DNA from: Desulfovibrio sp. TomC
GTDB lineage: Bacteria > Desulfobacterota > Desulfovibrionia > Desulfovibrionales > Desulfovibrionaceae
Assembly: GCF_000801335.2 (NCBI RefSeq)
Contig: NZ_JSEH01000028.1
Coordinates: 1 to 57,157, forward strand
DNA: 57,157 bases
Direction: 5' to 3'
Below the pieces are notes generated by a model. That model saw only the letters and a list, made by a program, of their open reading frames with translations, did not search any database and was not told the DNA's origin. The position numbers and the translations under genes were made by a program. How positions within the stretch are numbered: position 1 is the stretch's first letter; every line of letters starts with the position of its first letter. Shown here one piece after another: positions 10,299 to 13,816 of the stretch.

Positions 10299-12326
10299 TT
10301 ACACGGCGGCAATGTCCTCGCCGTCCGGAAGGTCCAGACGCACGGGCATGATCATAAACGGCATGCCCAGCCGGTAGATTTGGCGTTGCAGGGAGAAGAC
10401 GACGTAGTTGTGCAGGAAGCGGGTGAAAAAGGTGTCGTGTTCAAAGACGATCTGGCCGCCGAAAAAGATGGCCTTGGGGAAGCGGTCCCGCAGGGGCGGG
10501 GCCAGCTCCAGGACCTCCTGGACGATGTCGGTGCCGACGGCCCAGTGGGCTTCGGCGTGGTAGCCGCGCTCGGTCATGACGCTGACGTATTTGCCAAGCC
10601 CTTCTTCCATCTCGGTCTTGAGCTGGTTGAGCTTGTCCGTGCCGCGAAAGACCGCCGCATCCACCACGCCGATCTGCACGAAGACGTAGTTGGCGATGTC
10701 CTTGCCGAAAAGGCGCACCACCGAAAGCAGGGTATGGACGCCCAGGCCGCTGAATCCGTTGACGAAGATGACGGCGGTCGGGGCCTGGGGATCGGGCTTG
10801 GGGCCGTGGGCGCTTTTGGGAATAGGCCGGGTGTAGGGGTTTTCGGGATCGATGACGGCGCGCAGCACGTCGAGCTTGCGGATGCTCTTCCACACCCGGT
10901 TGTAGTGGCGTTTGACGGCAAGGGCGGCCAGCACCAGCGCCCCGGTGATGACGATGGTCACCCAGCCGCCGGCATCGAATTTGACGATGGTCACGGTGAT
11001 CAGGATAAAGCTCGTCAGGGCCAGTCCGAGGCCGTTTAAGAGCATGCCCTTGCCCCAGTGGGCGGAGGAGCCGCGCACCTGCCACCAGTGGCGCACCATG
11101 CCGAGCTGGGACAGCACGAAGGTGACAAAGACGTTGATGCTGTAAAGGACGATGAGGATGTCCACGGCCCCGTCGGTGGCCAGAAGCAGGATCAGGCCGG
11201 CTACCCCCATAAGGGCGATGCCGTTTTGGGTGACGAGGCGATCCGAGAGCAGGGCAAAGCGGGTGGGAAACCAGCGGTCCAGGGCCATGTTGGACAACAC
11301 CCGGGGGCCGTCGACAAAGCCGGCCTGGGCGGCCACGAACAGCAACAGGGCCTCGGAGACCAGGGTGATAAGGACGAAGCCGCCGCCAACCGTCGGTCCG
11401 AAGCCGGCGGCCATGCTCTCAAACAGGACGGCGTTTAAGGTTTTGCCCGGCACGGCCGTCACCCGGTAGAGGATAAAGCACAAAATGAGTCCGACCACGG
11501 TCAGGGACAGGGACAGGGCCATGTAGAGCATGGTCCGCTTGCCGGTTTTCTCCTTGGGTTCGCGCAGGATGGGCAGGCCGTTGGACACGGCCTCGATGCC
11601 GGTATAGGTGCCCGCGCCCATGCTGTAGGCGTGCAGCACCAGGAGCAGCATGCCGACTGTGCCCAGTTCGCTTCTGGCCGCGCCGACATCGGCCCCAACC
11701 CGGGTGACCACGGCCGGCAGGTCCATGGCGTGGGACCAGAGGCCGTAGCCGATGCCCAGGGCGTGGGTGACGACGAAGACCATGAAGACCGGCACCAGGA
11801 CCAGCACCGATTCCTTGACCCCGCGCAGGTTTAACAGCGTCAGGGCGATGATGCCGGCCGCAGCCACGGGCAGCCGGTAGGGCAGCCACTCGGGGGGCAG
11901 GAAGCTGAAAACGGCGTCGGCCCCGCTGGCAATGGAGATGGCGATGGTCAGCACGTAGTCGATGAGCAGGGCGCAGCCCGAGACCATGCCCACGGTTGGC
12001 GACAGGAGTTTGCTGGCCACGAGGTAGCCGCCGCCGCCCGAGGGAAAGAGTTCGATGATCTGGGAATAGGCGGCGCTGATGATGATGATGGTGGCGGCCG
12101 AGGCCAGGGCCACGAACACGGCCAGGAAGCCGTGCTGGCCCAGGGCCAGGTAGGCCTCGGCCGGGCCGTAGCAGGAGGAGGACAGGCCGTCGGCCCCAAG
12201 GCCCACCCAGGCGAAAAAGGCGATGAGCGAGAGATTATGGAATACCGAGTGGTCGGCCAGATTGAGCGAGCGGCCAAACAGCACGCGGCGCAACCAGGCC
12301 AGGGGCCGGATGGGGGAATCGGACAT
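10299..12326 (-). CDS. APC-superfamily transporter, KimA-like (probable potassium importer)
   Basis: 675 residues. About 12 transmembrane segments occupy residues 25-500, and a soluble C-terminal domain of about 150 residues follows (VIFVNGFSGLG, then FGGQIVFEHDTFF). The segment GLGADGLSSSCYGPAEAYLA in the first helices matches the APC/KUP-type permeases related to Bacillus KimA (YdaO), a c-di-AMP-regulated high-affinity potassium importer. The call is greatly strengthened by the c-di-AMP riboswitch in its leader at 12596-12716. The ATG at 12326 follows GAGG. The substrate is inferred; an amino-acid permease remains possible. Confidence 0.8.
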   Translation of the reverse strand: MSDSPIRPLAWLRRVLFGRSLNLADHSVFHNLSLIAFFAWVGLGADGLSSSCYGPAEAYLALGQHGFLAVFVALASAATIIIISAAYSQIIELFPSGGGGYLVASKLLSPTVGMVSGCALLIDYVLTIAISIASGADAVFSFLPPEWLPYRLPVAAAGIIALTLLNLRGVKESVLVLVPVFMVFVVTHALGIGYGLWSHAMDLPAVVTRVGADVGAARSELGTVGMLLLVLHAYSMGAGTYTGIEAVSNGLPILREPKEKTGKRTMLYMALSLSLTVVGLILCFILYRVTAVPGKTLNAVLFESMAAGFGPTVGGGFVLITLVSEALLLFVAAQAGFVDGPRVLSNMALDRWFPTRFALLSDRLVTQNGIALMGVAGLILLLATDGAVDILIVLYSINVFVTFVLSQLGMVRHWWQVRGSSAHWGKGMLLNGLGLALTSFILITVTIVKFDAGGWVTIVITGALVLAALAVKRHYNRVWKSIRKLDVLRAVIDPENPYTRPIPKSAHGPKPDPQAPTAVIFVNGFSGLGVHTLLSVVRLFGKDIANYVFVQIGVVDAAVFRGTDKLNQLKTEMEEGLGKYVSVMTERGYHAEAHWAVGTDIVQEVLELAPPLRDRFPKAIFFGGQIVFEHDTFFTRFLHNYVVFSLQRQIYRLGMPFMIMPVRLDLPDGEDIAAV

Positions 12327-12418: not shown

Positions 12419-12535
12419 TCAGACGACGGCGAGGAGGCGTCCTGGCGGATGGGCCTTGGCAAGGAAGGCAGGACGAAAAGGATCGGGATCGGACAGGAGC
12501 GGGCGCAGCCCGGGAGCATGGGCGTCGAACAACAT
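12419..12535 (-). CDS. Candidate 38-residue leader peptide between riboswitch and transporter
   Basis: A short open frame starting MLFDAHAPGLRPLL lies between the riboswitch and the transporter gene. It has a strong ribosome site (GGAGG, about 8 bases before the ATG) and GC-rich third codon positions like its neighbours. It ends 92 bases before the transporter start. It has no recognisable domain, signal or membrane segment. It may be a regulatory leader whose translation the riboswitch controls, or a small protein. Only ribosome-site strength, position and codon usage support it. Confidence 0.4.
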   Translation of the reverse strand: MLFDAHAPGLRPLLSDPDPFRPAFLAKAHPPGRLLAVV

Positions 12536-12595
12536 GAGGCATCCCTCCGGAGACCGGTTGCGGGAAACCTGCCTGGCGACAAGCGGTTTCCCCTT

Positions 12596-12716
12596 CGACG
12601 TCTACGAGGTTAGCTGACGGGCTCGGGCCGAAGAGGTTGCCCTACGCCGGAAGACCGGCGATACGCCCCGGGAAAGTGGGTCCCCCGCTTCCGCCACGGG
12701 CGGAACTCGACGTTGG
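12596..12716 (-). ncRNA. c-di-AMP riboswitch (ydaO/yuaA motif)
   Basis: On the minus strand the segment shows the conserved ydaO/yuaA blocks in the right order. They are GGGGGACCC, a GGGGCGTATC turn followed by a CGCCGG/CCGGCG hairpin, GTAGGGCAACCTCTTCGGCC, then the signature GAGCCCGTCAGCTAACCTCG. The P1 stem pairs ACGTC (12710-12714) with GACGT (12597-12601). These blocks closely match known ydaO leaders, which bind cyclic di-AMP and usually switch genes off. The downstream gene is a KimA-like transporter, the classic target of this riboswitch. After P1 a GGGAAACC/GGTTTCCC hairpin lies at about 12562-12593 and could belong to the expression platform. Confidence 0.9.
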
Positions 12717-12728
12717 AAGCCAGATAAC

Positions 12729-12746
12729 GCCGGCCTTGGCCGGCGT
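12729..12746 (-). terminator. Hairpin at the 3' end of the glycosyltransferase gene
   Basis: CGCCGGCC-TT-GGCCGGCG lies immediately after, and touching, the stop codon at 12746-12748. It is followed on the minus strand by only a short TTAT. It probably ends the upstream gene and separates it from the riboswitch leader. Confidence 0.5.
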
Positions 12747-13816
12747 CAAGCGTTTGCCGCCGGGGCCAGGACGGGGGCGTCGTCGTCCTGCCCGGGAAGC
12801 AGCCCGTGGCGGGCCAGGAATTGTTCGGGCGTGCCGGGATAGGTGAGCATTTTGTGCGTGAAAATGGCGCTAAACTGTTCGGCAAAGGGTTCGCGCCGAC
12901 CTTCGCGCTCATAGAGGGCCTCGATGAGCCGGATGAAATCCTGCCGCTGCTCCCGGATTTTGAGCAGGGTGCGCAGCCGCACCACCCGGGGGGACAGGTC
13001 CTGGGCGATCAGGTCGGCCACGGCGGCGGCAACGGCCCGGGGGTCAGGTTCCACCACCCGGCTGATTTCCGGATCGAGGAAGGCGTCGCGTCCGCCCTGG
13101 CTCGGGGTGGAGACCACGGGCAGACCGCAGAGCATGTACTCGGTGGTGGCGTAATTGCCGCCTTCCACCTGGGACAGGCACAGCCCCACCCTGGCCCGGT
13201 TGATGGCCTGGCACATGGCGGCGGGACCAAGCTTGCGGTACGCGCCGTCAACCGGATCATGATTGGGCAGGACCATGCCGGGCATGGTGCGCGTCAGGTG
13301 GCGCACATAGGTCTGCTGCTTGTCCGGGTCGGTCGGGTCGAAATAGTACAAAAGCTCCCAGGACGGGATGCGTCGGGCCAGGGTATGGCGTTTGAAGGGG
13401 AGCGGCCGGGCGGTATAGACGGCGTCGAGGTCCTTGTTCACGTCCGGCAGGGGACGAAAGATCGCTTCGTCGAGAAAGGCGTTGTGGTGGCACAGGTAGT
13501 TGGGCAGGCCGATGCGTTCGAGCAGGGCGTTTTCTTCCTGGGCGTTGGTCAGGAAGATGTACTCATGCAGCGGGTACATGTCACGCATGAGACTGTAGAA
13601 CTGTTTGGTGCGCACGAGCACGCCGCGATCCAGCAGCGACCACCAGTTGCCCATGAGGAAATAGGCTTTGCGATGCGCCAGATAGGGAGAAAGCTGCATG
13701 GGCGCGCCAAGGGGCAGTCCGTAGGAGATGATGATGAGCGGATCCCGGCTGACCAGATGGCAGCGCAGGGTTTCGCGTACGGAAAGGCGGAAGGCAGAGC
13801 TTGGCGGCGTGGTCAT
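12746..13816 (-). CDS. Glycosyltransferase, GT4-like
   Basis: 356 residues. The C-terminal Rossmann half contains VEGGNYATTEYMLCGLPVVS (about residues 219-238), the E-x7-E nucleotide-sugar motif of GT-B family 4 enzymes. The N-terminal half includes PFKRHTLARR near residue 137, in the usual position for a phosphate-binding loop. It probably transfers a sugar to a surface glycan or lipid. GAGGGAG precedes the ATG at 13816. The gene for a membrane glycosyltransferase-like protein ends 100 bases upstream on the same strand. No polysaccharide cluster surrounds them. Confidence 0.7.
   Translation of the reverse strand: MTTPPSSAFRLSVRETLRCHLVSRDPLIIISYGLPLGAPMQLSPYLAHRKAYFLMGNWWSLLDRGVLVRTKQFYSLMRDMYPLHEYIFLTNAQEENALLERIGLPNYLCHHNAFLDEAIFRPLPDVNKDLDAVYTARPLPFKRHTLARRIPSWELLYYFDPTDPDKQQTYVRHLTRTMPGMVLPNHDPVDGAYRKLGPAAMCQAINRARVGLCLSQVEGGNYATTEYMLCGLPVVSTPSQGGRDAFLDPEISRVVEPDPRAVAAAVADLIAQDLSPRVVRLRTLLKIREQRQDFIRLIEALYEREGRREPFAEQFSAIFTHKMLTYPGTPEQFLARHGLLPGQDDDAPVLAPAANA

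Follow-up and report, generated by a model that had tools for sequence, protein, structure and literature searches.

The window, meaning the whole 57,157-nucleotide stretch of Desulfovibrio sp. TomC DNA that was analyzed, carries on its minus strand a leader with a c-di-AMP (ydaO/yuaA) riboswitch aptamer, a 38-codon upstream open reading frame (uORF), and a kimA-type gene, in that order. The upstream neighbor is a glycosyltransferase-like gene (13816-12746). Past kimA, the same strand carries genes for a radical-SAM protein and an anaerobic ribonucleotide reductase (PF13597, 616 bits) at 10193-7406. The product of a further minus-strand gene, at 7219-6005, weakly resembles the IrrE N-terminal domain (PF06114), scoring 20.6 bits where the cut-off is 22.

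Riboswitch aptamer and putative promoter

We searched the whole window by cmscan against all Rfam families (Rfam 15). RF00379 (ydaO/yuaA) was the sole match above gathering, at 12722-12584 on the minus strand (94.6 bits, E 4.4e-21; gathering score, 38 bits). The match spanned model positions 1-134 of 134 with one pair flagged as non-standard, and the score was above the curated cut-off across the whole aptamer. An initial annotation of this DNA had placed such a riboswitch, with a compatible P1 stem, at 12596-12716 and had named a sub-threshold covariance score as what would count against it. The score was far from that range, the coordinates were correct to within 12 bases, and the strand, not given there, is minus. 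The P1 stem was also present, with CGUC (12712-12709) pairing with GACG (12602-12599). The same covariance model found a single copy in the 5.07-Mb, 84-contig genome and, on 14 control genomes, gave matches in B. subtilis and C. glutamicum. As in its class, the aptamer precedes a gene linked to K+ or osmolytes, KimA being encoded downstream. We infer from class membership that the aptamer is a c-di-AMP riboswitch. The riboswitch itself belongs to an already known class; the uORF between it and kimA is the less expected part.

The leader appears to have a promoter of its own. A -35-like hexamer, TTGACG (12744-12749, minus strand), is separated by a 17-nt spacer from a -10-like hexamer, TATCTG (12721-12726, minus strand), a weak match read from the sequence. 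This pair ends where the aptamer starts, and the transcript would begin at or just before P1. TTGAC is conserved: 50 of 53 leaders of the family Desulfovibrionaceae have it 24-35 nt ahead of the position where the aptamer model begins, and its background rate in the window is 0.033 per 30 nt. A strict promoter scan of the window leader returned 0 sites and missed the TTGACG box. The dyad GACGCCGGCCaaGGCCGGCGTTA was not accepted as a terminator because it lies mostly between the -35-like and -10-like boxes. The upstream hairpin GACGCCGGCC-aa-GGCCGGCGTTA, considered as a terminator of the preceding gene, was set aside because it lies mostly between TTGACG and TATCTG, and TTGAC is found at the same distance in relatives. 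The stop codon of the glycosyltransferase-like gene overlaps the -35-like box at 12746-12749.

KimA-type transporter gene

The gene after the leader (10299-12326, minus strand) encodes 675 amino acids and is preceded by a Shine-Dalgarno (SD)-like GAGGAA (12337-12332, minus strand), as read from the sequence. Pfam detected amino-acid permease domains only (PF13520, 63 bits; PF00324, 28 bits), and an NCBIfam scan of the protein gave no match. When the PDB was searched with phmmer, B. subtilis KimA (6s3k) was the only match at E ≤ 0.001 (E 6.4e-59, 203 bits). For an AlphaFold2 model (38-row alignment, mean pLDDT 80.5), the KimA entries 8b70, 8b71, and 6s3k ranked 1-3 among PDB structures, making KimA the best PDB match by both sequence and fold. 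These fold alignments covered 637-650 columns including gaps, with a TM-score by target length of 0.68-0.70 and a large global rmsd of about 14 Å.

Residues D36, Y43, D117, T121, S125, T230, E233, and Y377 of B. subtilis KimA are discussed for K+/H+ in PMC6994465, and all eight were identical in the phmmer alignment. In contrast, the window protein is only 23-24% identical to KimA in the fold alignments, and it differs at Arg337, described as a c-di-AMP contact in PMC10284832. The phmmer alignment gives its counterpart as Thr (355 of 675 residues), then Arg. The C-terminal domain also differs, having no KimA match in the PDB by sequence at E up to 10, and was aligned to KimA by fold alignment only. 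On sequence and modeled fold, the product is a KimA-type K+/H+ symporter of the KUP family, and K+ transport is predicted. The initial annotation had read this gene as an APC transporter of the potassium-importer type, with which the sequence and fold matches agree.

c-di-AMP enzymes and other genes in the genome

A diadenylate cyclase gene, which had been expected to accompany the riboswitch, is encoded in the genome (PF02457, 141 bits). It is of the CdaA type, with DAC and CdaA_N domains, and adjoins a YbbR/CdaR gene. The genome also encodes a PgpH-like 7TMR-HDED protein (133 bits); the presence of c-di-AMP enzymes in the organism is thus assigned from genes. The suggestion that the organism is a sulfate reducer is consistent with its dsrA (628 bits, cut-off 393). 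Kup, a second K+ importer, is encoded elsewhere (623 bits), and the stretch examined around that kup gene had no RF00379 match.

Leader and uORF in the genus of the window

Following the aptamer, the first ribosome-binding site to appear is that of the uORF and not that of kimA. Its SD sequence, GGAGGG (12543-12548, minus strand), was invariant in 8 of 8 leaders of the genus, and the uORF ATG followed 5, 6, or 7 nt past this unchanged sequence. In the window the uORF occupies 12419-12535 on the minus strand and translates to 38 codons, MLFDAHAPGLRPLLSDPDPFRPAFLAKAHPPGRLLAVV, with stop codon TGA; kimA starts 92 nt after that stop. The initial annotation, which had the riboswitch controlling the transporter, was therefore partly supported: the riboswitch class and the KimA-type target stood, but direct control is an incomplete reading, as the nearest start after the aptamer is that of the uORF.

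Directly 3' of the aptamer, all 8 genus leaders have a genus-specific hairpin, GGGAAACC...GGUUUCCC (12562-12592, minus strand). One of its pairs was compensated on both sides (AU in 6, CG in 2), and its outermost pair was broken in one sequence. The segment after this hairpin, CCGGAGGGATGCC, was invariant in 8 of 8. An aptamer segment, GGGCAACCUCUUCGG (12628-12642, minus strand), has complementarity to the ribosome-binding site of the uORF together with the adjoining 3' bases, and RNAalifold paired it with CCGGAGGGAUGCC in 8 of 8 leaders; both strands are invariant, and the pairing hence has no covariation support. A PPG triplet, which is a slow-translation motif, occurs in the second half of 4 of the 8 uORFs (G000, G263, G264, and G259) and is absent from the other four.

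Comparison across the family and phylum

RF00379 was found at 53 places in 41 of 288 family genomes, a KimA homologue (E ≤ 1e-40) in 26, and a DAC domain in 261. All 53 places were used and were oriented by script. The 14 genomes of the window's genus comprised 8 with aptamer and kimA, 5 with neither, and 1 with a kimA leader cut by a contig end. RF00379 was present in 52 of 395 genomes drawn from the phylum. It occurred somewhere in 23 of 50 entries out of 80 genomes or records retrieved for their KimA homologue, a set that includes other phyla and some family members. Outside the family, 58 places were listed, 43 fetched, and 42 counted. Two rows were dropped, L140 (aptamer motif unrecognized in either orientation) and L163 (the same place as L173), and L182 was left out of the helix scan for a run of N. 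The family had 27 kimA genes, and 24 of these had an aptamer leader; the leader in G267 ends at a contig end 127 nt upstream. One family genome (G167) has two divergent kimA homologues (L127 and L138), with no RF00379 match in the stretches examined.

An exact GGAGG-N5..9-ATG pair lay 40-56 nt past the aptamer, hereafter the slot, in 19 of the 24 family aptamer-kimA leaders. By genus (our labels), a slot uORF occurred in 8/8 leaders of the window's genus (g1), 10/10 of g25, 1/1 of g7, 0/3 of g4, and 0/2 of g23. The background for this pair in the window was 0.0024 per 14 nt, to be read with slot limits that were drawn after seeing the leaders. The frame closed after 29-40 codons in 19 of 19. 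As a conserved feature, the uORF is well supported by these comparisons; as a translated, regulatory element it is putative.

The spacing to kimA differed by genus. In all 10 g25 leaders, -4 to 14 nt separated the uORF stop and the kimA ATG, and in 9 of the 10 this stop was in or beside the kimA SD (TAGGAGG and similar). The product of shuffle probabilities for this spacing was 4.6e-8, which assumes ten independent leaders and is overstated because relatives are not independent. The gap was 55-147 nt in the window's genus and 97 nt in g7. Close spacing of the ppe2 stop/start coupling type was found only in g25, and not in the window with its gap of 92 nt.

Family leaders ahead of genes other than kimA were also compared. 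The slot held an ATG with GGAG or GAGG in 19 of these 29, and the frame was long in all 19. Downstream proteins were scanned for 10 of the 29; nine were Kup (PF02705) and the tenth was Kup by NCBIfam in another frame. Eight of the 10 slot-less leaders belong to g12, with SD and ATG about 110 nt past the aptamer. Targets of RF00379 were KimA and Kup in relatives; other families added KdpA and a TrkA protein. Outside the family, the first long open reading frame was KdpA in L152 and L205, the TrkA protein in L200, a LysM-bearing transglycosylase in L194, and an amino-acid permease-like protein in L161. Ten kimA leaders came from other families. Among them, kimA started in the slot in 4 (L142, L147, L155, and L191), a terminator-like site was found in 4 (L148, L165, L195, and L201), L164 had one by eye, and L196 had neither; the scan of these ten found no different SD and start in the slot.

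Proposed control of kimA through the uORF

Since the first frame after the riboswitch is a short leader peptide, control of K+ uptake probably passes through the uORF. We propose, with a confidence that leans toward the idea without being high, that the c-di-AMP aptamer gates translation of the uORF and that kimA expression depends on that translation. The promoter just upstream would yield a transcript with the aptamer as its first structure, and the state of the aptamer would set whether ribosomes can start about 48 nt past it. In the window's genus that start would be the 38-codon uORF rather than kimA, and translation of the uORF would then allow kimA expression. The uORF of g25 may act on kimA by stop/start coupling. 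For the window's genus, translating ribosomes would hold the leader unfolded and occupied, so that the kimA ribosome-binding site is exposed and/or Rho is kept off the RNA. A high c-di-AMP level would report enough K+, and KimA would therefore be lowered; the behavior of c-di-AMP and KimA in Bacillus underlies this assumed OFF direction. The 5 of 24 family aptamer-kimA leaders that have no such uORF count against the proposal.

RNA folding and masking

A local anti-SD helix of 11-13 bp, formed on the uORF SD with bases next to the aptamer, was found in 10 of 10 g25 kimA leaders (0/200 shuffles each), and g7 had one of 10 bp (1/200 shuffles). Nothing beyond chance was found in the 8 leaders of the window's genus, where the best was 6 bp in L096 (31/200 shuffles; window, 126/200). 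By ensemble folding of RNA ending soon after the uORF start, the SD region in this genus paired with the unfolded aptamer in most leaders. Opening the uORF SD and start was cheaper by 0.4-4.1 kcal/mol with the aptamer imposed in 7 of 8 leaders, as an ON switch for the uORF would have it, and dearer in 1. In longer window RNA, most SD bases were instead less free with the aptamer imposed. The g25 uORF SD was closed in both modeled states, and joint consensus folding of the 19 uORF leaders paired the SD with a different aptamer segment. A two-state switch read from equilibrium folding was rejected, as the short, longer, and consensus folds gave no consistent direction. Neither the ligand, nor tertiary structure, nor the order of co-transcriptional folding is represented in the models, and for this reason no switch direction was read from them.

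We also assessed whether the uORF RNA hides the kimA SD. Native uORF RNA hid it more than shuffled uORFs did in the window's genus (mean z 2.8 over 8), with no more than 2 of 40 shuffles reaching the native value in 5 of 8 leaders. The value was 2/40 for the window and 6/40, a weak effect, for L109, while L174 and L179 had no effect compared to shuffles. The g25 leaders taken together did not have the effect (mean z 0.55), and g7 had the opposite, with 35 of 40 shuffles exceeding native. Occupying the uORF lowers the opening cost of the kimA SD, which is expected from removing partners, and only the shuffle control was counted. A direct duplex between the uORF and kimA SD was tried and rejected: 113 of 300 shuffles matched it in the window, and shuffles fell under 5% in 2 of 8 genus leaders (L102, 12/300; L178, 3/300), at 7-8% in L179 and L174, and at 27% or more in the remaining four, the window among them. 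One of 10 g25 leaders (L175) was under 5%. Long perfect matches between uORF and kimA SD exist in the genus leaders L178, L171, L102, L174, and L179, and own pairs averaged -16.8 kcal/mol vs -14.2 kcal/mol for swapped pairs in the genus.

The short-RNA results would suit a double negative, in which c-di-AMP turns the uORF on and uORF translation represses kimA, as for MetE of M. tuberculosis. In most leaders of this genus the modeled free RNA has the aptamer paired to the SD and start of the uORF, opening is cheaper in 7 of 8 with the aptamer in place, and riboswitch-linked uORF repression has precedent (PMC11260477). However, the energy differences are small compared to model error and ignore tertiary structure, and the longer window RNA leans the opposite way. 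The g25 uORF-kimA junction resembles positive coupling, and in most genus leaders untranslated uORF RNA hides the kimA SD, which points to activation. We consider the double negative unlikely, although it is the best of the alternatives to gating of kimA by uORF translation.

Conservation of the uORF

Pooled pN/pS of the uORF peptide was 0.67 (2 genus pairs) and 0.81 (11 g25 pairs), from pairs more than 50% identical only, a choice that favors low values. The third-position GC excess was weak, being reached by 36 of 2000 shuffles. Peptide conservation is therefore weak as evidence that the uORF is translated. The best 80-nt C-over-G stretch of the window was in the top 0.4% of single background windows, yet it is the best of many positions. 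Rho loading was not accepted on C-richness; the genus uORFs were no richer in C over G than Kup-type gene starts, which makes Rho involvement in the leader a guess.

These results bear on whether the uORF is a vestige that no longer has a function, Rho acting on an untranslated leader or the switch being defunct in the genus. The weak peptide conservation and the C-rich window leader would fit, as would the g25 uORF start, which is like the tandem kup start in some genomes and may be left over from a duplicated unit. Against this, the exact GGAGG and ATG are kept in 19 of 19 uORF leaders from three genera whose uORFs have otherwise diverged, and the g25 stop position tracks the kimA start through different frames. 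We give the vestige little credence compared to a uORF that relays the riboswitch signal.

Terminators and alternative kimA start

Strict scans found no terminator-like site in the whole leader of the window or in the first 130 nt past the aptamer in 8 of 8 genus leaders. Up to 130 nt past the aptamer, such sites occurred in 1 of 53 family leaders, inside the g7 uORF, vs 12 of 42 other-family leaders; the scans were strict, and imperfect terminators can escape them, as that of L164 did. The window leader looks like a translational expression platform. A canonical ydaO switch, in which c-di-AMP stabilizes an intrinsic terminator before kimA and the uORF is incidental, is the textbook mechanism for Bacillus, and some other families of the phylum seem to employ it, the 12 other-family leaders having a hairpin with a U-rich tail past the aptamer (e.g., L148, L165, and L195). 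With no such site found by the strict scans in the first 130 nt past the aptamer of the genus leaders, and the single one in the family inside a uORF, we find this mechanism improbable here.

About as improbable is that kimA is translated from the slot under direct riboswitch control, starting at an in-frame ATG at 12542 and making KimA 72 residues longer. In its favor, no stop interrupts the window frame 12542-10299 (747 aa), and kimA begins in the slot in other families (e.g., L142, L147, and L155). Against it, this ATG abuts GGAGGG (0 nt), and only L001, L096, and L102 of the 8 genus leaders have it joined to kimA by an open frame. All 8 retain the next ATG, at a normal spacing of 5-7 nt, and in all 8 its frame closes before kimA, which possesses its own SD-like sequence and start.

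Possible origin of the uORF

Tandem riboswitch-kimA and riboswitch-kup units were observed in g25 (L169/L094 in G158, L170/L097/L189 in G159, L104/L177 in G156, and L175/L180 in G166), with up to three aptamers within 5 kb. The g25 uORF start resembled the tandem kup start by eye in 5 of 8 same-genome comparisons (25-31 of 48 bases), as in MPAVHLAVLRPF and MPAVSLAVMRPW; 3 of 8 had no such likeness (16-26 of 48 bases). These comparisons suggest that the uORF of g25 may derive from kup by truncation of a copy. We offer the following only tentatively, as a scenario that we doubt more than we believe. A riboswitch-kup unit may have been duplicated, and its kup copy may have shrunk in g25 to a uORF of 29-37 codons before kimA, so that within the Desulfovibrionaceae the riboswitch, once in direct control of a K+ transporter, came to act on a leader ORF instead. 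In the window's genus, an aptamer strand would mask the uORF start and the uORF RNA would mask the kimA start, with the ligand signal relayed by the translating ribosome.

Significance and comparison with known systems

Control of K+ uptake by c-di-AMP is best studied in Gram-positive bacteria. The present analysis would place such control in sulfate reducers, with a set of candidate parts. Family leaders with and without the uORF form a test set for the role of riboswitch-linked uORFs. Annotation often omits such short frames, and riboswitch targets taken from annotation alone may therefore be off by one open reading frame. We found no published case of a c-di-AMP riboswitch with a uORF or leader peptide, or of one in Desulfovibrio, in open-licence literature judged by title and the start of the abstract, with PMC8632094 checked by passages.

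The RF00379 riboswitch of B. subtilis upstream of kimA/ydaO is like that of the window in aptamer class, in ligand class by membership, and in its KimA-type target. It is unlike it in that Bacillus uses a terminator, whereas no terminator-like site was found in the window leader and the first open reading frame past the aptamer is the uORF.

Both of the nearest published precedents for a riboswitch with a uORF come from M. tuberculosis (PMC11260477, PMC12810186). In the metE and ppe2 B12 riboswitches, a short uORF sets expression of the main gene, with uORF translation suppressing MetE and the ppe2 uORF acting by stop/start coupling (PMC11260477). The window's family shares the order of riboswitch and then short uORF, and the coupling of ppe2 is what the g25 leaders suggest. 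A conserved SD and start of a short open reading frame between aptamer and main gene was found in 19 of 24 family and 8 of 8 genus leaders. The B12 switches differ in ligand, phylum, and target, their uORF action was shown by experiment where that of the window is inferred, and in the genus of the window 55-147 nt separate uORF from kimA. The pe20 Mbox has a highly conserved uORF, rv1805A, with Rho-dependent termination (PMC12810186). It is a Mg2+-type switch, and the peptide of the window uORF is not highly conserved as rv1805A is. Like the arrangement proposed for the window, the pe20 Mbox combines a translational platform with a uORF as the first controlled open reading frame, ahead of an operon linked to ion uptake.
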